Assembly: GCA_903642225.1 (NCBI GenBank)
Contig: CAHJWI010000020.1
Span: forward strand, 1-64,000
From: Acidobacteriaceae bacterium
GTDB taxonomy: Bacteria > Acidobacteriota > Terriglobia > Terriglobales > Acidobacteriaceae
Direction of reading: 5' to 3'
Length of the DNA: 64,000 nucleotides
The translations under genes and the position numbers were made by a program. Positions 42,172 to 56,387 of this stretch are shown one piece after another (positions within the stretch are counted from its first letter, which is position 1; the number at the start of each line of letters is the position of its first letter). The notes below the pieces were generated by a model, which made no database searches, was not told where the DNA came from, and was given only the letters and a program-made list of their open reading frames with translations.

Positions 42172-42328
42172 GGAGCAAGTGTAGGGCTTCCATTTATAAG
42201 GACGAGACCCGCACGCCTGAATCGGTGACGCGAAATGTCGCGCAACAGACAAGGCTTGTGTCAACAGCCGCGCATAGACGGTGTCGGCTAACGGACATTA
42301 TAATTTCTGATCTCAGAAGTGGTGGCCT

Positions 42329-42739
42329 ATGCGCAATTTTTCGACAGTGATTTGCGTTGGACAGGAAATTCGACTTCTCGACGTCCGTTCTCAGGTGCTC
42401 CGCACGCGTTTCGCCACAGTCCTGTATGGAGGGCCCGCCGACCTGTACAGACTTCTGGCACAGCATCCGTTCGACTTGCTAGTGCTCTGTCACACGCTGT
42501 CTGAAGAGGAAAGCCATGAGGCCGCAGCGCGGTTTCTCGCATGCAATCCGGGCGGAGCCATTCTTGCGATGTATACGCACCATACAACGTTCTCTCTGAA
42601 AGAAGCGGATGCCTCTGTTCCTGCCCTGGCGGGTCCGCAACGCATGTTCCACGCTGTAGACGGCCTGCAGCAACATGGCATGCCACGCTTTGCCCTTTCA
42701 CCATACTTGCAGGCCGCTCCGCCGCCTCACCCGCGATAA
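42329..42739 (+). CDS. Pseudo-receiver domain protein (first of a tandem pair)
   Basis: 136 aa, a single alpha/beta domain with the rhythm of a response-regulator receiver: strand VICVGQEIRLLDVRSQVL, TVLYGGPADLYRLL, strand DLLVLCHTLSEEESHEAA, and strand GAILAMYTHH. The phospho-acceptor Asp expected after the third strand is Cys-His here, and the acidic pocket in the first loop is Gly-Gln-Glu, so phosphorylation is unlikely. It would act as a phosphorylation-independent binding module. Start chosen by alignment with its paralogue. Confidence 0.75.
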   Translation: MRNFSTVICVGQEIRLLDVRSQVLRTRFATVLYGGPADLYRLLAQHPFDLLVLCHTLSEEESHEAAARFLACNPGGAILAMYTHHTTFSLKEADASVPALAGPQRMFHAVDGLQQHGMPRFALSPYLQAAPPPHPR

Positions 42740-42913
42740 CCCGGTCCCCGACCTGGCTCAACACTGCATACGACCAATATCGAGGCTTACACAGCAAGGC
42801 TGAATGATGGACGTAACACTACGGCCTGAAACGCCGCATGGCCTATATTGCGCACGTGGCTGCAGCAATTTGAGCGGTTACCCATACTCAACACAGCTGC
42901 ACGACGGTGCCCT

Positions 42914-43297
42914 ATGCAGGACTTCTCAGCAGTGCTTTGCGTTGGACACGACATTGACCTTCTCAACGTGCGTTCCGCAGTGCTTCGCACTCGCTTTCTA
43001 ACGGTATCCAGCGGGGTGCCGGCCGATGTACAAAGACTCTTGCCGGAACGGGCTTTCGCTCTGATGGTGCTTTGCCACACACTCAGCCAGGTGCAGTGCA
43101 AGGAAGCGGTTAAGCAATTCCACGGCGCCAACCCGGATGGAGCGGTCCTTGCAGTGTGCACACTACATACGACCTTCTCTCTGGAAGAGGCGGATGTGTC
43201 TGTTGCCGCCCTGGCAGGTCCACAATGCATGTTCGACGCCGTTGAAGGGCTGCAGCACAGGGGTATGGCTCGTTTTGGGCGAGTCCTGCCCACATAG
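42914..43297 (+). CDS. Pseudo-receiver domain protein (second of a tandem pair)
   Basis: 127 aa, paralogue of the gene just upstream: VLCVGHDIDLLNVRSAVLRTRF, SSGVPADVQRLLPERAFALMV, LCHTLSQVQCKEAV, GAVLAVCTLHTTFSLEEADVSV and LAGPQCMFDAVEGLQ. It keeps the Leu-Cys-His in place of the phospho-Asp. Aligning the two copies sets this start at the ATG 42914, although the frame opens at 42848. The 174-bp spacer between the copies shows no gene. The shared CVG-LRTRF-LCHTLS blocks and similar DNA around both starts show a tandem duplication. Confidence 0.75.
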   Translation: MQDFSAVLCVGHDIDLLNVRSAVLRTRFLTVSSGVPADVQRLLPERAFALMVLCHTLSQVQCKEAVKQFHGANPDGAVLAVCTLHTTFSLEEADVSVAALAGPQCMFDAVEGLQHRGMARFGRVLPT

Positions 43298-43442
43298 CAG
43301 ACGTATTTAGTTGATGTACGCCGACTTATGCACTTCCAGCATGTCACGTCAAGAGACGAGCAGCGTCGCTACACCATGCGTGCCAGAGCTGAACGCTACC
43401 GACACAGCCGTTAAGTACGTTTTGCAGACGACCCGGCATTGT

Positions 43443-45953: not shown

Positions 45954-46055
45954 TCAGCGTGGACTGCCATACGCCACGGCAAACCCCACCAGCACAGCAG
46001 CAACAATCCCCACCGCCAGCACCACTACCCACCGTGCGTACATGTCGTTATTCAT
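45954..46055 (-). CDS. 33-residue single-pass membrane peptide
   Basis: Starts MNNDMYARW, followed by one hydrophobic helix of about 20 residues (VVVLAVGIVAAVLVGFAVAY) and a short GSPR tail. The ATG overlaps the TGA of the glycosyltransferase gene upstream (ATGA), a classic coupling arrangement, and the stop lies 24 bp before the GH92 start. The charged, short N-terminus suggests inside-to-outside insertion. No homologue recognised. It is the last small gene of the glycan operon and may anchor or regulate its enzymes. Confidence 0.65.
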   Translation of the reverse strand: MNNDMYARWVVVLAVGIVAAVLVGFAVAYGSPR

Positions 46056-47134
46056 AAGCTCACTGCTGCTACCCGCTCCACAACTCGCTCAAACTCCTCC
46101 GCACGTCTTCGAGCAGTGTGGTTCGCCAGCGTTCGGGCCTGCGCAGCTTCGCCCATCCGCCGAGCTTCCGCCTCGCTCATCTCCGTCAGCACGCGCACCA
46201 CCTCATCGCGCGTTGTGGCCACGGCAATCTCCTCGCCCGGCGTAAAAAAATCCTCCAGCCCCGGCCACACATCGCTTACCATCGCCGCCGCGCATGCACT
46301 TGCCTCAAACAACCGTACCGACGGCGACCAACCGGCCGCAACCATGTCCGCCCGCGTCAGGTTCAGCACAAACCGCGATGACGAATATAGCCCCGCATGG
46401 TCCGCAGGCGGTAAGTGCGGATGTGTCACCACGTTAGTAGCCCATTCCGTCCCCGCAGGATACATCGGCCCTGCCACCAGAAATCGCTCGTCCGCCAACT
46501 GTCCAGCGGGAGCGTTCAATAACTCCATCAACTTCGTCTGCCGGTCCGCCGCATACGTTCCCAGGTAACTCAAAACGCACGCAAACTCCCGCCGCACCGG
46601 CATGCGCCTGTATAAGTCAGGGTCTACCGAGCAGTAGAACGGCACCGCCATGGGCGACCTGAAGCGATCCTCTAACTCCCGCAGAACCGGCCCGCCAGTA
46701 AATGAAAGGTACGCCGCGTATCCCGGTATATCTTCCGCTCGCAGATACTCGCACTGGCCGTGGAGCCGCAACGCCGCCAGCGTAATGGGAGTGTCGATGT
46801 CATAAAACAATATGGGCCCGGCAAACTCCTGTCTCAGAAATTCCGTTGCTTTGATCGCATCGGGAAAGTAACTTCCCACGACTACCACGTCAGCACCGGC
46901 AAGCGCCGCACGCACCACCGCTGCACCGTCCTGTGCCCAATCCGTATATAGCCGCAGAGAAACGTACTCCGGCTGCGGCAAGTCGCGATTACTGCGGTAC
47001 CACTCCACGTCCTTTTCCACGAATACAACAGTGTGACGGCGTCGCCGCAACTCACGGCAAAGTGCACGGTACGTCGTCGCATGCCCATTGCCCCACGACG
47101 ACGTAATCGATAAACCAAGAATCACTATCTTCAT
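46052..47134 (-). CDS. CgeB-like glycosyltransferase
   Basis: 360 aa with a GT-B fold. The front domain begins MKIVILGLSITSSWGNGHATT, with a nucleotide-free Rossmann pattern. LFYDIDTPITLAAL and the later YCSVDPDLYRRMP are typical of the DUF3880/CgeB group. The C-terminal glycosyltransferase half shows LSYLGTYAADRQTKL, FVLNLTRADMVAAGWSPSVRLFEASAC and then AAMVSDVWPGLEDFFTPGEEI, the donor-binding region. Sugar and acceptor unknown. Its start codon overlaps an inverted repeat, and its stop overlaps the 33-residue peptide gene. Confidence 0.88.
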   Translation of the reverse strand: MKIVILGLSITSSWGNGHATTYRALCRELRRRRHTVVFVEKDVEWYRSNRDLPQPEYVSLRLYTDWAQDGAAVVRAALAGADVVVVGSYFPDAIKATEFLRQEFAGPILFYDIDTPITLAALRLHGQCEYLRAEDIPGYAAYLSFTGGPVLRELEDRFRSPMAVPFYCSVDPDLYRRMPVRREFACVLSYLGTYAADRQTKLMELLNAPAGQLADERFLVAGPMYPAGTEWATNVVTHPHLPPADHAGLYSSSRFVLNLTRADMVAAGWSPSVRLFEASACAAAMVSDVWPGLEDFFTPGEEIAVATTRDEVVRVLTEMSEAEARRMGEAAQARTLANHTARRRAEEFERVVERVAAVSL

Positions 47135-47158
47135 TGAGCTTCATTGTAGAAGCTCAAT
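47133..47158 (-). promoter_or_regulatory. Inverted repeat overlapping a glycosyltransferase start codon
   Basis: ATTGAGCTTC and GAAGCTCAAT, perfect 10-bp arms with a 6-base loop, lie between the DinB-fold gene stop and the ATG at 47132-47134. The last two bases of the second arm are the A and T of the start codon. In RNA this would hide the ribosome site, so it may throttle translation of the downstream glycosyltransferase. Confidence 0.65.
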
Positions 47159-47160
47159 GT

Positions 47161-47670
47161 TTATTGCTGACGCGCAGCGGCCCGCTTTTCCAGCCCGGCC
47201 AGGTGGTGCAGGTCATGACCGGCCGCAATCTCCACCAGCGTCCACAGCGTAATCGGCCCGGCAGAGGGGTGCATCGCGGGCCGGGCCTTGTCCTCCGCGC
47301 TGAAGGTTTCAACCAACGCCAGGTTCCACATGCGCACCGTACGCCACGTTGTCAGCGCAGCCTCCGTCGTGTACCTCACGCCGTCATAGGCACGCGCCCA
47401 CGGGTCCTGCTCAAACGACTGCAGCGTCGGATTGCTTTCGCCGTATACCTGCCGCAGTCGCCACGCCCACGCGATCTCGCAGTCTGCCATGTGGCACAGC
47501 AACTCGCGCAGGCTCCATTTGTCCGGCGACGGTCGCGTCGTGATCTCCTCCGCCGTAAACCTTGCCAGCAACGCATTCAGCGCTGTTGGCGTGGTGCGCA
47601 TGACCTCGTCAGGGGCGCGCCCGTCCAGCAGGTGCACATAGGGGGTTATGTTTGCAGTCTCTTCGCTCAT
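47161..47670 (-). CDS. DinB family protein
   Basis: 169 aa helical bundle of the DinB/YfiT type. Metal-ligand His positions are visible in SLRELLCHMADCEIAWAWR and in AGHDLHHLAGLEK near the end; the third ligand is less clear. Such proteins are thiol-dependent transferases or hydrolases, and EgtB's own N-terminal domain is related. It sits inside the glycan operon, 3 bp after the CgeB-like gene and 26 bp before the next, so it is probably part of the pathway. The acceptor could be a thiol-linked intermediate, which is inference. Confidence 0.88.
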   Translation of the reverse strand: MSEETANITPYVHLLDGRAPDEVMRTTPTALNALLARFTAEEITTRPSPDKWSLRELLCHMADCEIAWAWRLRQVYGESNPTLQSFEQDPWARAYDGVRYTTEAALTTWRTVRMWNLALVETFSAEDKARPAMHPSAGPITLWTLVEIAAGHDLHHLAGLEKRAAARQQ

Positions 47671-47673
47671 GCG

Positions 47674-48798
47674 TTATAGGATGCACGCGACTGCCTTCAT
47701 CTGCCGCAAGGCCGCATCGGCTTGCGCCGCCCGTTGCGCATACGTGTGGTCCCGCAACGCCCGCGCGTGGAACGCCTGCCCGATGCGCTTTGTCGCCGCA
47801 GCATCGTGCGTGCGCAGGTGCCGCACCACATCTTCTGCGGTGCGCACCACAAGAATCTCATCATCGATCGCGAAGCAATCGTCGATGCCGGCCCAGTCGT
47901 CACACAGTAGGCAGGCCGCCGCGCCTGCGGCTTCAAACACCCGCGTGGGTGGCGAAAACCCACTCACTGCCATGCTTGCCCGGTTGATGTTCAGCACCGT
48001 CCGCGCGCTTGAGTTCAACACGTTGTGCACCGCCGTTGGCACATGGCCGATGTAGCGAACGTTGGCAGGCATCGCTTTGTCGCCCCAGCCTTCGCCGCCC
48101 AGCAAAAACGTCTGCTCCGGCGCAAGCTCCGCAGCGCGCAGAAACAGCTCTTCCACCCGCGCCTCGCGGTCCGGCAGGCGGTTTCCCAGAAACGCCAGGT
48201 CGCACGCGTATGCCGGGTCTGGCGCAACGGGAAAGTGGGTTTCCGGGTCAAGCCCGTTGTATGCCTGCAGGTAGTTTCGTACGCCGTACCGCGCAAAGCC
48301 GTCCCTGCACATGGGCCCGCCGCCGTAGCTGAAAACCGCATCCAGCCGGGGCACCACTGCACGGAATGAGTCAGAGGGGTCCGCGTCCATGCGCGCCAGT
48401 GTCGCAGGCGAATCCACGTCCCAGTAGACGGCAAGGGAGTGCGGCTGCGCCTCCAGGATCAGGCTCTCCGTCAGGGCATCATCCACGCCAATGCCGCTGT
48501 GCTTCACCACCACATCAGCCTTGCGTGCCTGCTCAAAGACCTCGGCCAGCGTCGGTAGATCGGCATAGTTGTCCCCATGCCCAAAGTCACCTTGAGTGCC
48601 GACCGGCTTGTACGTCACCAGATTTGCAAACGATAAGTCGACAGCATCCTTGTGCGTCTGCCGGCCGTACGCATCCGGCTCCGCAAAGGTAATGTCATAC
48701 CCCAGGCGAGCGAGGTACTTGTAACATCCGCGATAGTAAGTCGCCGCACCATTCCAGTAACTCGAGACCAGCGACGACCCGAACGCAAAAATCTTCAT
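47674..48798 (-). CDS. CgeB-like glycosyltransferase
   Basis: 374 aa. Starts MKIFAFGSSLVSSYWNGAATYYRG, with the same GT-B arrangement as the enzyme at 46052-47134. Shared group marks are LAVYWDVDSPATLARM, DAVFSYGGGP, YNGLDPETHFPV, LAFLGNRLPDREARVEELFL, RYIGHVPTAVHNVLNSSA and the donor site NINRASMAVSGFSPPTRVFEAAGAAA, then LLCDDWAGIDDCF. It is the third glycosyltransferase in transcription order. The two CgeB-like copies are distant paralogues, not recent duplicates. Confidence 0.9.
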   Translation of the reverse strand: MKIFAFGSSLVSSYWNGAATYYRGCYKYLARLGYDITFAEPDAYGRQTHKDAVDLSFANLVTYKPVGTQGDFGHGDNYADLPTLAEVFEQARKADVVVKHSGIGVDDALTESLILEAQPHSLAVYWDVDSPATLARMDADPSDSFRAVVPRLDAVFSYGGGPMCRDGFARYGVRNYLQAYNGLDPETHFPVAPDPAYACDLAFLGNRLPDREARVEELFLRAAELAPEQTFLLGGEGWGDKAMPANVRYIGHVPTAVHNVLNSSARTVLNINRASMAVSGFSPPTRVFEAAGAAACLLCDDWAGIDDCFAIDDEILVVRTAEDVVRHLRTHDAAATKRIGQAFHARALRDHTYAQRAAQADAALRQMKAVACIL

Positions 48799-48802
48799 AC
48801 GA

Positions 48803-49927
48803 CTAACTCACAACCTCATCCACTATCCGCGTAAGCTGGGCCGCCCGGTGTGCACATGTATGCCGCTGGAGCAGCGTATCCAGCCCCCGCTCCACCTGCG
48901 CCTCAGCGTACAGTGGATCGTCCAGCACCCGCCGCATCGCGGCTTCGGCCTCCGCGCCATTGCGCACCCATGTGAAATCTCCGTCGCGGAACAGGTCCTC
49001 GGTGTCCTCCCACGGCGCACTCAGCAGCGGGATTCCGCTTGCCAGCGCCTCAAACACGCGAATCGTCGGAATACCTTGTAGTGCGTTGTTATATTGCTGG
49101 CGCGGCACATGCATCGTCATGTGGCTGCGCGCGTACACGTCCGGCGCGGCAAGGTTCGGCAGATACCCGCCATACCTCACGCCTGCCAAGGCCAATGCCT
49201 CCTGCCCATCCTGCGGGTACCGTACCCCATAAATGGTCGCGCGAAACTCTGATTCGGGCGAGCTGCGCAGCCTTCCCGCCGGCCCGATCAGGAATTCACG
49301 CAGCTCTGCAGACCGCTCCCCATCGCCCCAGTTCCCCACCCACACAAGCTCGTTCTGGGCAGGTGCCTCGCGCGGAAAAAACACCGAGGTATCCGCCGCC
49401 TCATGCAGAGTCCAGCACGCATCCATGCCGAAACGCTCCTTGTAGATCGCCGTGAGCGCGTCGCCAAAGGTCAGCACACCGTCAAACTCGTGTACGCGCT
49501 GCAACCGAATGCTCTCCGGCGACGACGACGCGCGGTGGTGCGTGTCATGAAAGACCGCTTTGAACCCAAGCTCCGCACGCAGCCCAAGCAACACTGCGAT
49601 CAGCGCCGGCTCGTTCCACTCATGCACGATTACCAGGTCCACGTCATGCAGCGCACGGCGCAGTTCATCCTCAAGCGCCGGGTCTACCGGGTCATACAGC
49701 CGCAACACGATATCGGGATAGGTGGCTGCAAACTGATCGAGTGAGGCCTGGCCGCCGGCTTCCATCAACAGGTTTTCGTAGCTCCATCCGAATGCCGGCT
49801 CATACACCGCAACGGTGTGGCCTAACGATCCCATCTCCCGCACCAGTCCCCGCAAGAAGTGAGCGTTTCCGTTGTTCCAGTCAGACCGCAGCGTATGCAG
49901 AAAGAAGGCAATCCTAAGCACGCGCAC
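48803..49927 (-). CDS. Glycosyltransferase (GT-B fold)
   Basis: 374 aa. The front domain (RIAFFLHTLRSDWNNGNAHF) is followed by DLVIVHEWNEPALIAVLLGL and VFHDTHHRASSSPESI. The C-terminal half shows ELVWVGNWGDGERSAELREFL, GVRYGGYLPNLAAPDVYARS, and MTMHVPRQQYNNALQGIPTI plus RVFEALASGIPLLSAPWEDTEDLF, where the E-A-L-A-S-G-I-P block is the donor-binding motif. It overlaps the upstream GT4 gene by 14 bp and is 4 bp from the next gene, so translation is tightly linked. Confidence 0.9.
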   Translation of the reverse strand: MRVLRIAFFLHTLRSDWNNGNAHFLRGLVREMGSLGHTVAVYEPAFGWSYENLLMEAGGQASLDQFAATYPDIVLRLYDPVDPALEDELRRALHDVDLVIVHEWNEPALIAVLLGLRAELGFKAVFHDTHHRASSSPESIRLQRVHEFDGVLTFGDALTAIYKERFGMDACWTLHEAADTSVFFPREAPAQNELVWVGNWGDGERSAELREFLIGPAGRLRSSPESEFRATIYGVRYPQDGQEALALAGVRYGGYLPNLAAPDVYARSHMTMHVPRQQYNNALQGIPTIRVFEALASGIPLLSAPWEDTEDLFRDGDFTWVRNGAEAEAAMRRVLDDPLYAEAQVERGLDTLLQRHTCAHRAAQLTRIVDEVVS

Positions 49928-51041
49928 CGGCCAGGTTTTTACCGCATACCTCGTCGTACAGCCGCAGGTACTCCGCCGTCATGCGGCCGCGACTGTACTG
50001 CGAGCGTGCGCGCACCGCAGCACGGCTCTGCATCTCATGCAGACGGCCCTCTTTCGCGGAAAGCTTCTCCAGCGCGACGCACAGCGAATCCGCATCGCTA
50101 AAGTACACGGCGTCGTCCCCCCACACCTCGCGCTGCGAGTGGATGTCTCGCGCCACGATCGCACAACCACACTGCGCCGCTTCCACCGCACTCAAACCAA
50201 AGGGCTCATACACGCTCGTAACCAGATACACGGCGCTTTCTGCAAACAGGTGAATCATTGCAGATTCCGGCAGTTTGCCCAGCAGCACCCGCCGCCGCAG
50301 AAGCGCCGCGTCGTACGTCGCGTCGGGTGAGGTCGTCTCCCCTGCCACAAGTACAGGCATAGGGCTCATGCAATTTTCCAGCACAGCCATGCCCTTGGCG
50401 CTGTCCCACACCCGCCCGGCCGTTACCGCCTGCAGCTTTTTTGCTATGCGTGGCGTGTCCACACTGCGCCCGTTTGCAATCACCTTGCTATGCGGCAGCT
50501 TGCCATTGAAGTGAGATCCGAAGCCGCGCCGAAGCTCACCCATCATCCAATGCGTGGGTGCCACGACCGCCGTCGCGCCCATCAGGCCATCCGTCACCAG
50601 CATGCGATATGTCGCCAACCATTCCGACTCCGGCAAGCCCACATCCCCGTGCATTGCCCGCGCCCATCCCAGCACATCGCTGTGCGCGACCACGATCTTT
50701 GGGCACTGGAGCGGCAGTGCGCCAAAGCAGAACTGGTTGCTGTGCAACACGTCAGGGACAAACTGCTTCGCGATGCGGCGTAACAGCGGCTCCGCATAGA
50801 TGTAGGCCTTGCTGTTCTCGCCCTGCCACTCCAGCGGCAACGTTGTCGACTCAAACGTAAAGCGCTTGCGATACCGGCCCGACACACCGCGCAACCAGGT
50901 TGTCTGCTCATCAGATGCGGCGCTGCCGAAGCTCACCAGCAGAACCTGCACATCTGCCCGCGCATCCAGCAGACCCAGCACCAACTCGCGAGTGTAGGTC
51001 CACACACCGCCAACGGTATCGGTCGTCATCAGGATGCGCAT
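49914..51041 (-). CDS. GT4-like glycosyltransferase
   Basis: 375 aa. The glycosyltransferase family 4 layout is clear: RILMTTDTVGGVWTYTRELVLGLL at the front (the G-G-V-W-x-Y acceptor loop), DVLHSNQFCFG, APTHWMMGELRRGFG, then VIANGRSVDTPRI, and VYLVTSVYEPFGLSAVEAAQCGCAIVA, where the E-P-F-G-L-x-x-x-E-A motif binds the sugar nucleotide. It is a retaining enzyme by family. First glycosyltransferase downstream of the radical SAM gene, with a 9-bp spacer. Confidence 0.93.
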   Translation of the reverse strand: MRILMTTDTVGGVWTYTRELVLGLLDARADVQVLLVSFGSAASDEQTTWLRGVSGRYRKRFTFESTTLPLEWQGENSKAYIYAEPLLRRIAKQFVPDVLHSNQFCFGALPLQCPKIVVAHSDVLGWARAMHGDVGLPESEWLATYRMLVTDGLMGATAVVAPTHWMMGELRRGFGSHFNGKLPHSKVIANGRSVDTPRIAKKLQAVTAGRVWDSAKGMAVLENCMSPMPVLVAGETTSPDATYDAALLRRRVLLGKLPESAMIHLFAESAVYLVTSVYEPFGLSAVEAAQCGCAIVARDIHSQREVWGDDAVYFSDADSLCVALEKLSAKEGRLHEMQSRAAVRARSQYSRGRMTAEYLRLYDEVCGKNLAGARA

Positions 51042-51050
51042 GGAAGACCT

Positions 51051-52379
51051 CTATCCTAGGGCGAGTTCAAGTTCCGGCAAAGGCACCGGCTGCTGGTCTT
51101 GAATGTCAGAAAAGCCCTTGTCTGCGAACAGGCTTAAATAAAAAGCATGCGCGCGTTCCCACGCCTGCTCATCGGGCTGCGCGCCAAACGTGGTCACATA
51201 CTCCGGCGAGCCAGGGAACGGGAACATCGGCACCGGCTCACTGACCCACACGCCGTTTGCCTTCAGGTTGTCCTGAAACGCCCTCACGGCCACTGGATCG
51301 TCATGGTCTGTCTTGATGAGATTGGCCTGCACCCACGGGATCCGGCCCTTTGCGTAAATGAGCAGATCGGTGATGCGCTCCGTCGTGTACTTGCAGTTCT
51401 TGTTCATGTCTGCACGGCCCTGCTCGGTAATGCTTTCGACGCCGCACTCCATGCTGATGCAGTGTGCCCGCCCCAGCAGGTCAAAACCGGCCTCGTCCCA
51501 CAAATCAATACGTGTTTGGAAGCCGATGGACAGTGTCGGGCGCTTCGCTATCTCTTCCAGCAGTACGCGTACGTTCTTGCCGACCCCGAAGATCTCGTCG
51601 ATGAAATAGATGTACGTGACGCCACGCGACATCAGTTTGTCGATTTCGGCGACAACCTCCACCACGTCCCGTTCGCGATACTTGTTGCGGAACTGCGTTT
51701 TGTTGCAGAAGGTGCACGCATAGGGACATCCACGTGCAAACTCCAGTTCCGCGCCCAAACCTTCGACCGGCGTAAAAATATGGTGCTTGTGCGTGTGCAG
51801 CTCCACGGGGTAGTCGCTGAAGTCCAGTCGGGTGACGAACTTCATCTCCACCGCAGCCAGCGGCTCGCTGGCCTGCATCACGCGGCCCGGTACCTCGCCT
51901 GTCACGTCGCGCCACACGCAGCCGGGAATCGCGAACCGCGGCGTATTGGCAAGTAGAGGGAGCACCTGATCCGGCTCACCGCGCAGCACCACGTCCGCAC
52001 CGGTCTTGGTCAGCGTTGCTACGGGCGTGGAAGAGCCGTGCGGCCCGATAACGACCGTTGTTGGCTGCTTAGTGCGGCAGGTCGTTAGAGCGCGCAGCCA
52101 CATCTGCGGTACACGCAACTCCGGCTGTGGACACCGCCAGAACAGGTACGAATTCGCCGTGGGCAGAACCAGGAAATCCTCGCCGAAGGCCTCCAGCTTG
52201 GCCTTCACCTCGTCCGGCGTCAGCTTCAGCAGAAAGGCATCGACCAGCAAAACCTCATGGCCGGCGCGGCGCAAGAATTCCCGCGCGCCCAACAGCTCCA
52301 GCGGCACCACCGGCTGCTGGGAGCCGAAGTACGTCGAGCCTTCCCACGTCCAGAACGGATTGACCAGCGCAAACTTCAT
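51051..52379 (-). CDS. B12-binding domain radical SAM protein
   Basis: 442 aa. The front 150 residues are a B12-binding-like Rossmann domain (LVNPFWTWEGSTYFG, LGAREFLRRAGHEVLLVDAF, TTVVIGPHGSSTPVA). The radical SAM core carries the 4Fe-4S motif GCPYACTFCNK (CxxxCxxC, about residues 217-224), TYIYFIDEIFGVGKN, and GFQTRIDLWDEAGFDLLGRA. The C-terminal part shows MECGVESITEQGR, plus PWVQANLIKTDHDDP and EPVPMFPFPGSPEY. Class B-type enzymes of this kind often methylate or rearrange unactivated carbon. It resembles the B12-type radical SAM proteins found in oligosaccharide clusters. It overlaps the upstream epimerase by 4 bp. Confidence 0.92.
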   Translation of the reverse strand: MKFALVNPFWTWEGSTYFGSQQPVVPLELLGAREFLRRAGHEVLLVDAFLLKLTPDEVKAKLEAFGEDFLVLPTANSYLFWRCPQPELRVPQMWLRALTTCRTKQPTTVVIGPHGSSTPVATLTKTGADVVLRGEPDQVLPLLANTPRFAIPGCVWRDVTGEVPGRVMQASEPLAAVEMKFVTRLDFSDYPVELHTHKHHIFTPVEGLGAELEFARGCPYACTFCNKTQFRNKYRERDVVEVVAEIDKLMSRGVTYIYFIDEIFGVGKNVRVLLEEIAKRPTLSIGFQTRIDLWDEAGFDLLGRAHCISMECGVESITEQGRADMNKNCKYTTERITDLLIYAKGRIPWVQANLIKTDHDDPVAVRAFQDNLKANGVWVSEPVPMFPFPGSPEYVTTFGAQPDEQAWERAHAFYLSLFADKGFSDIQDQQPVPLPELELALG

Positions 52380-53521
52380 CGCGCATCTCCGGCCATGGCG
52401 CGAGTCAAGCCAAGCACACTGGCCATTACCCCTGCGTCCTTCAGATCGTCCTCTGCGTCGTCGTTCGCCTCTGCCCCGGCACGCTGCACAATCTGCGCAC
52501 GGTTGCTGGCGTAAAACCCCACAATGCTGTCCAGAATGTCATCGATTGAGCGCGTCGGCCGCCATCCAGTGTCACCTGTGATCCGGTCCAGCGCCGACAC
52601 ATACAGCGGCTGATCCCCGGGTCGAGTCTCGCTCGAGTCCAGCCTGGCTTGCCGGCCCACCCGCGCTTCAATACGCTGCAGCAATTCACGAATCGACACG
52701 GCACGATCCATACCGCCGCCAACGTTGTACACCTGCCCGGCGGTACCGCCAATCGCCAAGCGCACGGCCCCAAACGCATCCATCAGGTCATCCACGTGCA
52801 ATACGTCGCGCACCTGCAGGCCATCGCCGTACACGGTGATGCGCCGGCCGGCAAGCACGCTGTACACAAAGTGCGCCACCCATCCCTGATCCTCGTTACC
52901 GAACTGCCGCTGACCCGCAATGCAGCTCATGCGGAGCACGACCGTCGGCAGATTGTAGATCCGGGCGTAGTCCCGCACATACTGGTCGGCCGCACCCTTG
53001 CTGCACCCGTACGGGGAGTGAAAATCCAGCGGCGTCTCCTCGTCTGCGCCGTTCCACTCGCGGTTCACCGACCGGTACCGCGACCCCGCCTTTTCGACAG
53101 GCACCGTCTCTAGCGATCCATAGACCTTGTTGGTCGATGTAAACACCACCAGCGGCTGCCGGCCGTGACGCCGAGCAGCTTCAAGCACGTTGAATGTACC
53201 CGCGGCATTTGTATCGAAGTCACGCTGCGGGTCGGCGATGGACGTCGTGACAGCAACCTGTGCAGCCAAGTGGTAGATCTCGTCCGCGTGTCGCGCGGCA
53301 TCGCTTACCTGCTTGCTGTTCCGCACGTCACCATGGATGTAGCGCAAGTTTTTAGCAGCCGGCAGCGTGCGCAGCCATGCCAGGTTGTGCTCCGTCCCGC
53401 GTCGAGACAGATTGTCGAAAACGGTCACATGGGTACCCGGTTCGCTCAGAATCCGTGCTGCAAGATTGGCTCCCACAAATCCTGCACCGCCGGTGATCAA
53501 TATCTCGCGCACACTTCCCAT
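52376..53521 (-). CDS. SDR-type NAD-dependent epimerase (CDP-paratose 2-epimerase-like)
   Basis: 381 aa. The Rossmann motif ILITGGAGFVGANLA is at the front, followed by YHLAAQVAVTTSIADPQRDFDTNAAGTFNVLEAA. The TSTNKVYG block is characteristic of CDP-paratose/tyvelose 2-epimerase relatives; the catalytic YGCSKGAADQYVRDYAR gives Tyr and Lys. The end is typical extended-SDR (QVRDVLHVDDLMDAF, YNVGGG). Start set at ATG 53521; a GTG 8 codons earlier and a GTG 3 codons later are alternatives. It overlaps the radical SAM gene by ATGA. Exact substrate uncertain. Confidence 0.9.
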   Translation of the reverse strand: MGSVREILITGGAGFVGANLAARILSEPGTHVTVFDNLSRRGTEHNLAWLRTLPAAKNLRYIHGDVRNSKQVSDAARHADEIYHLAAQVAVTTSIADPQRDFDTNAAGTFNVLEAARRHGRQPLVVFTSTNKVYGSLETVPVEKAGSRYRSVNREWNGADEETPLDFHSPYGCSKGAADQYVRDYARIYNLPTVVLRMSCIAGQRQFGNEDQGWVAHFVYSVLAGRRITVYGDGLQVRDVLHVDDLMDAFGAVRLAIGGTAGQVYNVGGGMDRAVSIRELLQRIEARVGRQARLDSSETRPGDQPLYVSALDRITGDTGWRPTRSIDDILDSIVGFYASNRAQIVQRAGAEANDDAEDDLKDAGVMASVLGLTRAMAGDAR

Positions 53522-53846
53522 TCGTCCGGTCCACGACCCTTTCACAATCTTGCATGGCCGCTAAAGCCACAAAACGAATGTACCTGTTCTAAGTACCCTG
53601 CGGAAAGAGAGATGCGCGCAAACTTGTACGCGGTGGTACGGCCGCCCATCTTCTTCGGCAACTTCAACAAGCCGCCTTCCTCACACACCCTCCGGTTTTG
53701 AATGGGAACGGGCTCACGGAGCCGGAATGCGAGCCAACAGCGTCAGGATGGCGCTGCTTAAAGATCGTCCAGCGGACCCTGGCTGAGCTAACCGGGCAAC
53801 CTGAAGATCTGGTTACCAACAACGCGCTTTCCACGACCCACCATCT
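53522..53846. other. Gap between the two epimerase genes, 325 bp
   Basis: No gene supported on either strand. It is the only large break within the glycan operon, so a second promoter for the radical SAM half is plausible. A small stem (GGGCTC/GAGCC-type) lies near 53708-53722. No repeat of the palindromic family was recognised here. Confidence 0.4.
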
Positions 53847-55004
53847 CTACGCCGTCAGCCCATGGGCGGCTAACTGCTGCAGCATCGTATCGGCCTTGTC
53901 CTCCGCCTCCTGGCTCTCCAGCCAATGCGCCAGCTCCCCGAACCCCTCCTCATGCGTCACCTGCGGCTCATATCCCAACAGCGCGCGCGCCCGAGAGATG
54001 TCCGCGTAGCAGTGCCGAATGTCTCCCGCGCGGTATTTCCCGGTAACGACCGGGTCTAGTCCCTTGTCGCCCAGCGCACCTGCCAGCAGCTCCGCGATTC
54101 GCCGAATCGACACGGGGCGTCCCGACCCGATGTTGATCACCTGGCCGTTACTGGAAGGAGCATCCATGGCCAGTATGTTCGCCCGCACGATGTCATGGAT
54201 CGACACAAAGTCCCGCTGCTGCTCGCCATCCTCAAAGATCAGCGGCTGCTTGCCGTTCAGCATGCGCGAGGCAAATACCGCCGCCACGCCGGTATACGGG
54301 TTGCTCAGCGCCTGCCGCGTCCCATAGATGTTGAAGAACCGCAGCGCCGTTACCGGCAGCCCATACGTGCGGCCGTAGATCATGCACAGCTCTTCCTGGT
54401 CGCGCTTGCTCAGCGCATACATGCTGTTGATCTCACTCGGCTTGTCCTCATCTGTCGGCACAGGCTGCAGCGGTCCGCTGTCGCCGACTGAAACCTCCCA
54501 CTCACCGCGCTTCAGCTGCTCCGTTGACCGCACCGGCGGCGCATAGCTGCGGCCATCCGCGCCCACATAACGGCCTTCACCGTAGATGGACATACTGGAC
54601 GCCACCACGATCTTCTCGACCGGCGACTTGGTATCGAGCACGGCCTGCAGCAGTTCGGCGGTGCCCTGCGTATTCACGCTCATGTACCGGCTGATCTCGT
54701 ACATGCTCTGGCCCACGCCCACCGTTGCGGCAAAGTGATAGATCACGTCCACGCCGTCCAGCACAGTCTTCAACAGGTTCGGGTCGCGCACGTCCCCGCG
54801 CACTAGTTCGACGTCGGTCGAAAGATACTCTGGCCGCTCGCTACCCGGATGCACCTGCGGCGTGAGATCGTCCAGCACACGCACCGCGTGCCCCTGCCGC
54901 AGAAGACCATCGGCCAAATGCGACCCTACAAATCCCGCCCCACCCGTGATTAAGACCTGCCGCTTGCGCGACGCCGGCAAACTCTGTGCGCTCTGGATAC
55001 TCAA
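53847..55004 (-). CDS. SDR-type NAD-dependent epimerase/dehydratase
   Basis: 385 aa. The Rossmann motif VLITGGAGFVGSHLADGLL is at about residues 17-35, followed by YHFAATVGVGQSMYEISRYM and KIVVASSMSIYGEG. The catalytic pair is in SMYALSKRDQEELCMIYG; RFFNIYGTRQALSNPYTGV and REFVSIHDIVRANILA-like QRDFVSIHDIVRA follow. It is of the UDP-glucose/NDP-sugar epimerase class, distinct from its neighbour at 52376-53521. It overlaps the upstream glycosidase-like gene by 4 bp. Confidence 0.92.
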   Translation of the reverse strand: MSIQSAQSLPASRKRQVLITGGAGFVGSHLADGLLRQGHAVRVLDDLTPQVHPGSERPEYLSTDVELVRGDVRDPNLLKTVLDGVDVIYHFAATVGVGQSMYEISRYMSVNTQGTAELLQAVLDTKSPVEKIVVASSMSIYGEGRYVGADGRSYAPPVRSTEQLKRGEWEVSVGDSGPLQPVPTDEDKPSEINSMYALSKRDQEELCMIYGRTYGLPVTALRFFNIYGTRQALSNPYTGVAAVFASRMLNGKQPLIFEDGEQQRDFVSIHDIVRANILAMDAPSSNGQVINIGSGRPVSIRRIAELLAGALGDKGLDPVVTGKYRAGDIRHCYADISRARALLGYEPQVTHEEGFGELAHWLESQEAEDKADTMLQQLAAHGLTA

Positions 55005-56005
55005 GCTGTAGCAACCTCGATTTCATTCTCGTTCTGCACTAGAAGTTCCTCGCGCCGCCGCACCATCTGCGGCAGGTCGTACAGCGACCCCGCAGCATAG
55101 TTCACCGGCCCGACCTGCCCCGGCGACGCATACCGCGCCACACCCCAGGCGGCAAATTCCGCAAAATCTGCAACGTCCCTCGGCGGACTTGTATGGTGGT
55201 CCTCCAAGCCAAGGTGCCCCGGCGTAAAGCACAGCGTCATGGCCACCTCAAACTCCGCCAGCGCCGTAAAGACACGGTCGAACCACGCCTCCGCGTTCTC
55301 GCGGTATGCGTCCGCCCAGCTCAGCCCTGTGCGCAAATAGCGCACACCATGCGCCCTCATCCACGCCGCGGCGTCGTCCAGTCGGTGGTCCTGCCAGTGA
55401 AACCACTGGCACAAACCCACGGTGCCATCCATCGGGAAATCACGCGCCGCCAGCTTCGGCGTGCCGTCATGCTGCAGCAAACCAAGGTAGTAGTGCCGGT
55501 AGTAGCTTGACCCCTCGGCCTCTTTGTGTCGCGTCTCCGCAGGCCAGCTTGGCGGCAGGTCATACAGGCTGTACCAGTGCACGCGCGGCGTCTTGCCGGT
55601 AATCAGCTGCAGCGTCTTTACCATGCCCATCTGTGCTACTTCCTGCATGCCAAAGCTCGAGCAGCCAACCTCTGTCACCCACACCGGCTTGCTGCTCACG
55701 GCACCCGCTTCGGCGATCTTGTCCGGCCACTCCGAGAGCTGCCAGTGGTTCCAGTCCAACGGGAACCCATGGATCGCCACGGCATCCACAGCGTCCATCA
55801 CCCCGTGCGATCGCTGCAACCGCAGCCAGTCCGGGTCGCCACTGCTTACGCCGCCAAGCACCATTGGCAGTGACGGGTTGACCCGGCGCATCGCCGCGGT
55901 GCCCAGCTTCACCATCGCCGCAAACGTTTCCCACTGCGGGTCCAGGTGAAAGTTCCAGTGCGACAGATTGTTTGGTTCGTTCCACACCACAACTGCTTCG
56001 ACCAT
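55001..56005 (-). CDS. Glycosidase-like TIM-barrel protein with apparent circular permutation
   Basis: 334 aa. The acid/base motif VVVWNEPNN stands at the very N-terminus (residues 6-14), where GH clan A enzymes have it halfway. Then come the later barrel strands: DAVAIHGFPLDWNHWQ, the nucleophile region KPVWVTEVGCSSFGMQE, and VHWYSLYDLPP. After about residue 215 the sequence restarts like the first half of such a barrel: WMRAHGVRYLRTGLSWAD, EVAMTLCFTPGHL and DFAEFAAWGVARYA, which normally leads straight into the NEP strand. Both catalytic Glu are present. ATG 56005 has GGTGATG upstream; a longer form from 56062 is possible. First gene of the operon. Confidence 0.82.
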   Translation of the reverse strand: MVEAVVVWNEPNNLSHWNFHLDPQWETFAAMVKLGTAAMRRVNPSLPMVLGGVSSGDPDWLRLQRSHGVMDAVDAVAIHGFPLDWNHWQLSEWPDKIAEAGAVSSKPVWVTEVGCSSFGMQEVAQMGMVKTLQLITGKTPRVHWYSLYDLPPSWPAETRHKEAEGSSYYRHYYLGLLQHDGTPKLAARDFPMDGTVGLCQWFHWQDHRLDDAAAWMRAHGVRYLRTGLSWADAYRENAEAWFDRVFTALAEFEVAMTLCFTPGHLGLEDHHTSPPRDVADFAEFAAWGVARYASPGQVGPVNYAAGSLYDLPQMVRRREELLVQNENEIEVATA

Positions 56006-56310: not shown

Positions 56311-56387
56311 CGGGACGTGGCTCAGCCTGGTAGAGCGCACCCTTGGGGTGGGTGAGGTCGCAAGTTCGAATCTTGTCGTCCCGACCA
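56311..56387 (+). tRNA. tRNA-Pro (anticodon GGG)
   Basis: 77 nt with encoded CCA. Acceptor stem CGGGACG/CGTCCCG; D-arm region GTGGCTCAGCCTGGTAGAGC; anticodon stem ACCC/GGGT around loop TTGGGGT, anticodon GGG; T-arm AGTTCGAATCTTG with TTCGAAT. Discriminator A then CCA. It is followed 82 bp on by an alpha/beta hydrolase gene. Confidence 0.97.

Follow-up and report, generated by a model that had tools for sequence, protein, structure and literature searches.

The question raised by this locus is what is made by a compact run of ten genes in which a B12-binding-domain radical S-adenosylmethionine (AdoMet) protein (rSAM) lies among two short-chain dehydrogenase/reductases (SDRa and SDRb), four glycosyltransferases (GT1 to GT4) and a glycosidase-like protein (GHp). 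The run is located in the window, by which we mean the whole analysed stretch of 64,000 nucleotides (contig CAHJWI010000020.1 of assembly GCA_903642225.1, an Acidobacteriaceae bacterium). A sequence-only reading had taken the genes for an operon that builds a radical-modified glycan of no named pathway. Based on related loci and genomes we found that the pathway is real and strongly conserved; in general terms it belongs to oligosaccharide assembly, but we found no description of it. We lean slightly towards reading the genes in the window as the core of a cytosolic pathway that makes a modified, methylated hetero-oligosaccharide or glycoside, with a radical-modified glycan as the presumed product.

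All ten open reading frames (ORFs) were found on the minus strand at 56005-45954, and the operon is real. From right to left they are GHp (55001-56005), SDRa (53847-55004), SDRb (52376-53545), rSAM (51051-52379), GT1 (49914-51041), GT2 (48803-49927), GT3 (47674-48798), a DinB-fold (DinB_2) protein (47161-47670), GT4 (46052-47134) and a 33-residue peptide (45954-46055). The earlier domain calls were also recovered, with PF04055 and TIGR04295 in rSAM, two extended SDRs, DinB_2 and a weak Glyco_hydro_cc match. The reported ATGA overlaps occur twice (SDRb/rSAM and GT4/peptide, the former of 4 nt), whereas the 4-nt overlap of GHp and SDRa reads TTGA. GT1 and GT2 overlap by 14 nt, and the remaining spacings are 9 bp (rSAM/GT1), 4 bp (GT2/GT3), 3 bp (GT3/DinB) and 26 bp (DinB/GT4). 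The one larger gap, between SDRa and SDRb, is 325 bp as reported when counted from an ATG start at 53521 and 301 bp from the GTG start of SDRb.

A scan of genome contigs gave 160 relatives of rSAM, of which the best 80 (L001-L080) were used together with seven added plasmid clusters (L101-L107). These 87 related loci are biased towards the window's own family and contain near-duplicates. The order GT1-GT2-GT3-GT4 was found in 57 of the 76 loci with at least 4.6 kb downstream of rSAM (a variant in 3, none in 16), and the ordered loci span Acidobacteriota, Alphaproteobacteria and 'Deltaproteobacteria'. On a Bradyrhizobium plasmid, SDRa, SDRb, rSAM and GT1 to GT4 have one-to-one orthologues in the same order at 34-51% identity (SDRa 51%; GT2, GT3 and GT4 47% each; GT1 34%), and the nearest rSAM relative found is that of an uncultured Terriglobus (L001, 86%). 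Other named hosts include Azospirillum, Tistrella, Skermanella, Terriglobus albidus, Occallatibacter and a Geminicoccaceae bacterium, in addition to 'Deltaproteobacteria' metagenome-assembled genomes, one cyanobacterium and one Nitrospirae. The labels 'Rhodanobacteraceae' (L006) and 'Verrucomicrobia' (L007) were not used, as both loci fall within the Acidobacteriaceae rows of the tree and look misbinned.

In 34 of the ordered loci the sequence extends 9.6 kb or more to each side of rSAM. SDRa was present in all 34, a methyltransferase of family TIGR04290 in 32, SDRb in 31 and a stand-alone glycosidase in 30 (28 whole, one in two pieces in L058, one cut by the locus end in L061). A further glycosyltransferase, GTx, and a nucleotidyltransferase were each found in 19. 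Less frequent were a histidine phosphatase (9), a UDP-xylose-synthase-like SDR (6), inositol-phosphate synthase (5), phosphopentomutase (2) and GH92 (1). The sequence-only reading had put forward as its check that rSAM should recur across phyla together with the permuted glycosidase and CgeB-type enzymes. This was observed, and it is excluded that the homologues are scattered singly in relatives.

The 16 loci without the glycosyltransferases comprise seven SDRb-rSAM pairs and nine loci with the methyltransferase beside rSAM (SDRb was found in seven of the nine), and the latter nine form one clade in the tree. That such loci are a stand-alone sugar-nucleotide module was overturned by searching their genomes, all 16 of which have GT3 at another place and 15 of which also have the permuted glycosidase; they therefore represent split pathways. 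The methyltransferase was likewise elsewhere in 15, and in the sixteenth (L062) the match lies beside its rSAM. By eye, GT3 and the glycosidase are on one contig, at most 4 kb apart, in 13 of these genomes.

The window genome (3.66 Mb in 62 contigs) is also split, with five further members at two other places: GTx and the nucleotidyltransferase at C21:198-2071, and the methyltransferase (G000:C10; TIGR04290, 369.9 bits, cut-off 300), a GT9-like transferase and a HAD phosphatase on C10. The ten-gene set therefore contains a real core and is incomplete, with at least five further members elsewhere. Matches to the GT9-like protein occur in 24 of the related loci and matches to the HAD phosphatase in 17; PF01075 matches 15 of 19 GT9-like members, weakly (best E value 4.2e-5). 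The nucleotidyltransferase match (G000:C21:1301-2071, L115) has one in-frame TAA within the aligned range, and the protein of the window genome may simply end earlier than its relatives.

In a sample of 297 genomes of the phylum, TIGR04295 was over its cut-off in 5 and TIGR04290 in 6, and the permuted glycosidase was found in the same 6. The five rSAM genomes all fall within these six, which belong to five genera, and in a seventh genome (G188) the TIGR04290 match is below the cut-off. Hypergeometric estimates were 3e-10 for all five rSAM genomes falling within the six and 1e-12 for methyltransferase and glycosidase coinciding in all six, values that are too small owing to kinship between the genomes. 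The patchiness of the cluster, with rSAM over the cut-off in so few genomes, is what might be expected of unrelated sugar genes adjacent by chance. However, this explanation is refuted by the glycosyltransferase order in 57 of 76 loci and by near-perfect co-occurrence, also of unlinked genes, and we give it practically no credence.

GHp encodes a 334-residue glycosidase of the clan-A (beta/alpha)8 type (PF11790, 26.7 bits, cut-off 21). It is circularly permuted, and the earlier description as permuted is borne out by alignment with PslG, by fused domains, by rotation of the sequence and by an AlphaFold2 model. Residues 3-60 of GHp align with residues 132-189 of PslG, and therefore its start corresponds to the middle of a clan-A barrel. 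In clan A the two catalytic glutamates follow strands beta-4 and beta-7. The AlphaFold2 model (predicted local distance difference test, pLDDT, 90.4) has eight strands, with E10, of the motif WNEPN, after strand 1 and E112 after strand 4; the glutamate pair is present as expected, whereas the strand order is not the canonical one, as the chain starts at beta-4 and ends after beta-3. Both residues of this catalytic pair are invariant in an alignment of 31 sequences, and GHp should for that reason be active. When the window protein was rotated to the ordinary order, its score against PslG in the PDB search rose from 23.1 to 29.9 bits, with the alignment spanning the joint.

Seven loci (L050, L056, L070, L076, L078, L102 and L104) encode an SDRb with a GHp-related domain fused to its front. 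In the four of these with both halves matchable (L050, L056, L102 and L104) the order is the ordinary one, with the part corresponding to residues about 190-294 first and the N-terminal part after it, running to residue 188, or to 217 in L056; the first half of L050 was matched by the Bradyrhizobium protein only. L056 carries a stand-alone permuted glycosidase as well. Read from the sequences, the fused domains of L050, L102 and L104 retain the glutamate pair. Those of L056, L070, L076 and L078 have lost it, and there the fused barrels look like a glycosidase becoming a non-catalytic part.

Two results speak against the permutation. Pfam did not prefer the rotated form (26.3 against 26.7 bits unrotated), and Foldseek gave partial or poor barrel matches, none of them clean and full-length. 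The lack of a clean match is also what a permutation would give, which is weak evidence. No Pfam family matched the unpermuted fused domains of L050, L104 and L056 (L104 had a chance PDB match only), and no NCBIfam model matched GHp. GHp thus shares with PslG and GH39-like clan-A glycosidases the WNEPN acid/base, the second glutamate and a profile match to PslG (a GH39 enzyme), and differs in its permuted chain and in that no membrane segment was seen in a simple hydropathy scan.

The rSAM protein matches the NCBIfam model TIGR04295 (B12_rSAM_oligo) with 568.5 bits (cut-off 400) over model positions 1-422. The statement that the locus fits no named pathway stands in that no pathway or paper was found; it has to be amended in that rSAM already has a family, the name of which says 'oligo'. 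The 39 aligned sequences all keep the CxxxCxxC motif (C218-x3-C222-x2-C225) and two extra cysteines, C83 and C329. The predicted model (pLDDT 90.3) matches over its whole length the folds of TsrM (2.5e-19), MgmA, AprD4 (1.2e-15), OxsB, TokK and CysS, with which the protein shares CxxxCxxC at 14-19% identity, C83 and C329 being additional. The Pfam B12-binding family was not among the matches at an E value of 0.001. The whole-chain fold match to TsrM, OxsB, MgmA and TokK supports an N-terminal B12-binding Rossmann domain, and rSAM probably uses cobalamin. Against this, AprD4 has the same architecture and is not known to bind B12.

AprD4, which acts on paromamine, is also the best PDB sequence match of rSAM (33.5 bits) and would point to a secreted aminoglycoside-like natural product. 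This sequence match is weak, the best fold match being the tryptophan methylase TsrM, and no aminotransferase, resistance or export gene was found among the recurrent neighbour clusters that were run against Pfam, so that we regard such a product as very improbable. The next NCBIfam models for rSAM include BchE, a ladderane-type rSAM, HpnR and HpnJ, which would suggest a membrane lipid, such as a hopanoid, decorated with an oligosaccharide head group; however, their scores were far below the cut-offs (27-71 bits against 360-650).

SDRa is an extended SDR of the nucleoside diphosphate (NDP)-sugar 4-epimerase/dehydratase type. It has an insertion at about residues 145-182, and both PF01370 and its PDB relatives align in two stretches. 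SDRb resembles the CDP-tyvelose 2-epimerase TyvE (PDB 1orr, 270.6 bits; 9rl0, 268.5 bits; next solved SDR, 127.5 bits). A report on TaTyvE (PMC13098431), which converts CDP-glucose to CDP-mannose, served to assign the catalytic residues (Thr-Asn, Tyr, Lys) and the DQG substrate loop, and describes Tyr203 closing over the cytosine. In all 71 SDRb proteins adjoining an rSAM, TNK.Y, Y-x3-K and DQGW are kept, whereas the position of Tyr203 is Glu in 71 of 71. The nucleotide base of the substrate may therefore differ from cytosine, and for this reason SDRb is named no more than TyvE-like. L001 has a second sugar cassette (L001:1647-4408) upstream of its cluster, which comprises an SDR, an SDRb-like SDR with 44% identity to the Bradyrhizobium SDRb and, by eye, a putative GT2-type glycosyltransferase.

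All four predicted glycosyltransferases were confirmed. Three are CgeB-type enzymes well over the PF13524 cut-off of 25 bits (GT2 104.5, GT3 116.1 and GT4 129.6 bits), whereas GT1, with 26.7 bits, is better described by the GT4-family models PF00534 and PF13439, PF00534 fitting it better than PF13524. The CgeB-type transferases would suit a surface glycan (an exopolysaccharide, an O-antigen or a coat like that of spore crusts or cysts) with its export genes elsewhere. In agreement with this, a GH92 alpha-mannosidase gene (45947-43443, minus strand) with, by eye, a signal-peptide-like start lies directly downstream, 6 bp past the 33-residue peptide on the same strand, and the nearest relative of the glycosidase with a solved structure, PslG, has its role in an exopolysaccharide system. 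However, besides the window GH92 is beside the cluster only in L001 among the 87 related loci, the glycosidase has no membrane segment, and no flippase, polymerase or exporter was found among the neighbour clusters that were searched (see below). We therefore consider a surface glycan unlikely, and continue to favour a cytosolic oligosaccharide.

The DinB-fold protein (PF12867, 67.2 bits) and the 33-residue peptide, a real ORF with one hydrophobic stretch in the hydropathy scan, had been counted as members. Neither had a counterpart in the 87 related loci with flanks of up to 10-14 kb (chance matches only, with E values of 0.41 for DinB and 0.51 for the peptide, the latter in L001 at another position), and both were therefore removed from the system. 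DinB as a clue to a bacillithiol- or mycothiol-type product was dropped too, since among the loci compared it is confined to the window.

Starting from what was observed, namely the genes and their order, their retention together even in split genomes, the protein folds and the conservation of catalytic residues, we infer the reactions, their order, the product and the cytosolic location as follows. The nucleotidyltransferase encoded elsewhere in the genome would activate a sugar, and SDRa and the C2-epimerase-type SDRb would convert NDP-sugars to rarer epimers. The TIGR04295 enzyme, with [4Fe-4S], AdoMet and probably cobalamin, would then alter an unactivated carbon of that sugar, most likely by C-methylation, with radical epimerisation or diol dehydration also possible. 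Six glycosyltransferases (GT1 to GT4, with GTx and the GT9-like protein from elsewhere) may join the sugars one by one, and the TIGR04290 enzyme would add an O-methyl group. The HAD or histidine phosphatase could dephosphorylate an acceptor or intermediate, perhaps an inositol phosphate in some Alphaproteobacteria, and the permuted glycosidase would trim or recycle chains. Going further, and only tentatively, we propose an undescribed class of cytosolic oligosaccharides with a sugar reshaped by the B12-type rSAM. Acidobacteriota, Alphaproteobacteria and Deltaproteobacteria would make it by a single, laterally moving pathway of about 13 enzymes. The permuted glycosidase, an unpermuted cousin of which forms a fusion with the C2 epimerase in some species, would trim or transglycosylate within that pathway.

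As to location, no clear membrane segment was seen by the hydropathy scan in one representative per core gene, with a borderline stretch in GT2 and in the GT9-like protein. Of 25 neighbour clusters common to at least 4 of the 87 loci, 16 were run against Pfam, and no flippase, polymerase or exporter was found among these 16; with no exporter or polymerase seen in the conserved set, a cytosolic oligosaccharide is therefore favoured. Several observations weigh against this interpretation. The Pfam search covered 16 of the 25 neighbour clusters, several of the other nine being antisense ORFs, and genes for major facilitator superfamily transporters lie about 7-8 kb past GT4 in three Azospirillum plasmid regions. 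A stand-alone glycosidase is missing in 4 of the 34 full-flank loci (L102 and L104 have the fused form only, L070 and L076 a decayed fused domain; the genome of L070 has a glycosidase elsewhere), the methyltransferase in 2 (L001 and L070) and SDRb in 3, and in one genome (G286) methyltransferase and glycosidase occur although no rSAM scores above the cut-off.

Additionally, 6 of the 87 loci have a PLD-like neighbour and 5 have a YgaP-like membrane protein that carries a 'lipid transport' (Polyketide_cyc) domain, both mostly in deltaproteobacterial clusters. Together with the lipid-type NCBIfam models and the host taxa, many of which make hopanoids, these would fit the lipid head group mentioned above. 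Most clusters however lack such neighbours, hpn genes were not recognised, though no search aimed at hpn genes was made, and a cluster of this kind is not described in the excerpted part of a hopanoid survey (PMC12583986). We hold the decorated lipid to be improbable, and a cytosolic oligosaccharide or glycoside remains our preferred product.

Other recurrent neighbours were UDP-glucose dehydrogenase (11/87), a zinc alcohol dehydrogenase family (8/87), sensor kinases (two clusters, 5/87 each), CheB/CheR-PAS proteins (4/87) and DUF892 (4/87). With the catalase, Ku/LigD and oxidase genes on some cluster plasmids, they are at most hints of stress physiology. In the window, a tRNA-Pro (GGG) gene (56311-56387) precedes the operon by about 300 bp; patchy clusters adjoining tRNA genes may have been acquired by integration. 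Further to the left, between mutL and the GH92 gene, two similar short plus-strand ORFs (42329-42739 and 42848-43297) appear by eye and from the ORF list only to be tandem copies of one receiver-like protein. A minus-strand ORF within 42327-43347, also from that list, has a stretch resembling the MutL start (VIAGEAAERPASMVKG), and the region looks like a local duplication.

The families TIGR04295 and TIGR04290 are 'hypothetical equivalogs', that is, names without reaction or product. In a full-text literature search covering main texts, we found no paper on the system, and neither the names TIGR04295/B12_rSAM_oligo and TIGR04290/meth_Rta_06860 nor the name 'rhizo-twelve' occurred in the texts searched. 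With the present analysis these two orphan names become one defined pathway with a parts list, to which the permuted glycosidase, the GT9-like transferase, the HAD phosphatase, GTx and the nucleotidyltransferase are newly added; none of these is linked to it by any family model that we saw. The product should be findable, because named culturable hosts (Terriglobus albidus, Azospirillum, Skermanella and Bradyrhizobium) carry the cluster. For enzymologists, new rSAM sugar chemistry would be of interest, as would the natural circular permutation of a glycosidase barrel, for which the unpermuted form provides an internal control.

The best functional parallel is with the mycobacterial cluster for 3-O-methylmannose polysaccharide (ManT, MeT1 and MmpH), in which, according to the abstract of PMC9883506, a hydrolase recycles the chain for the transferase and is encoded beside the methyltransferase. 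Both are compact sets of glycosyltransferase, methyltransferase and chain-recycling hydrolase, likened here by function and not by homology. The mycobacterial cluster makes one polymer, and its abstract names no rSAM or epimerase, whereas the set in the window would serve a multi-transferase oligosaccharide.

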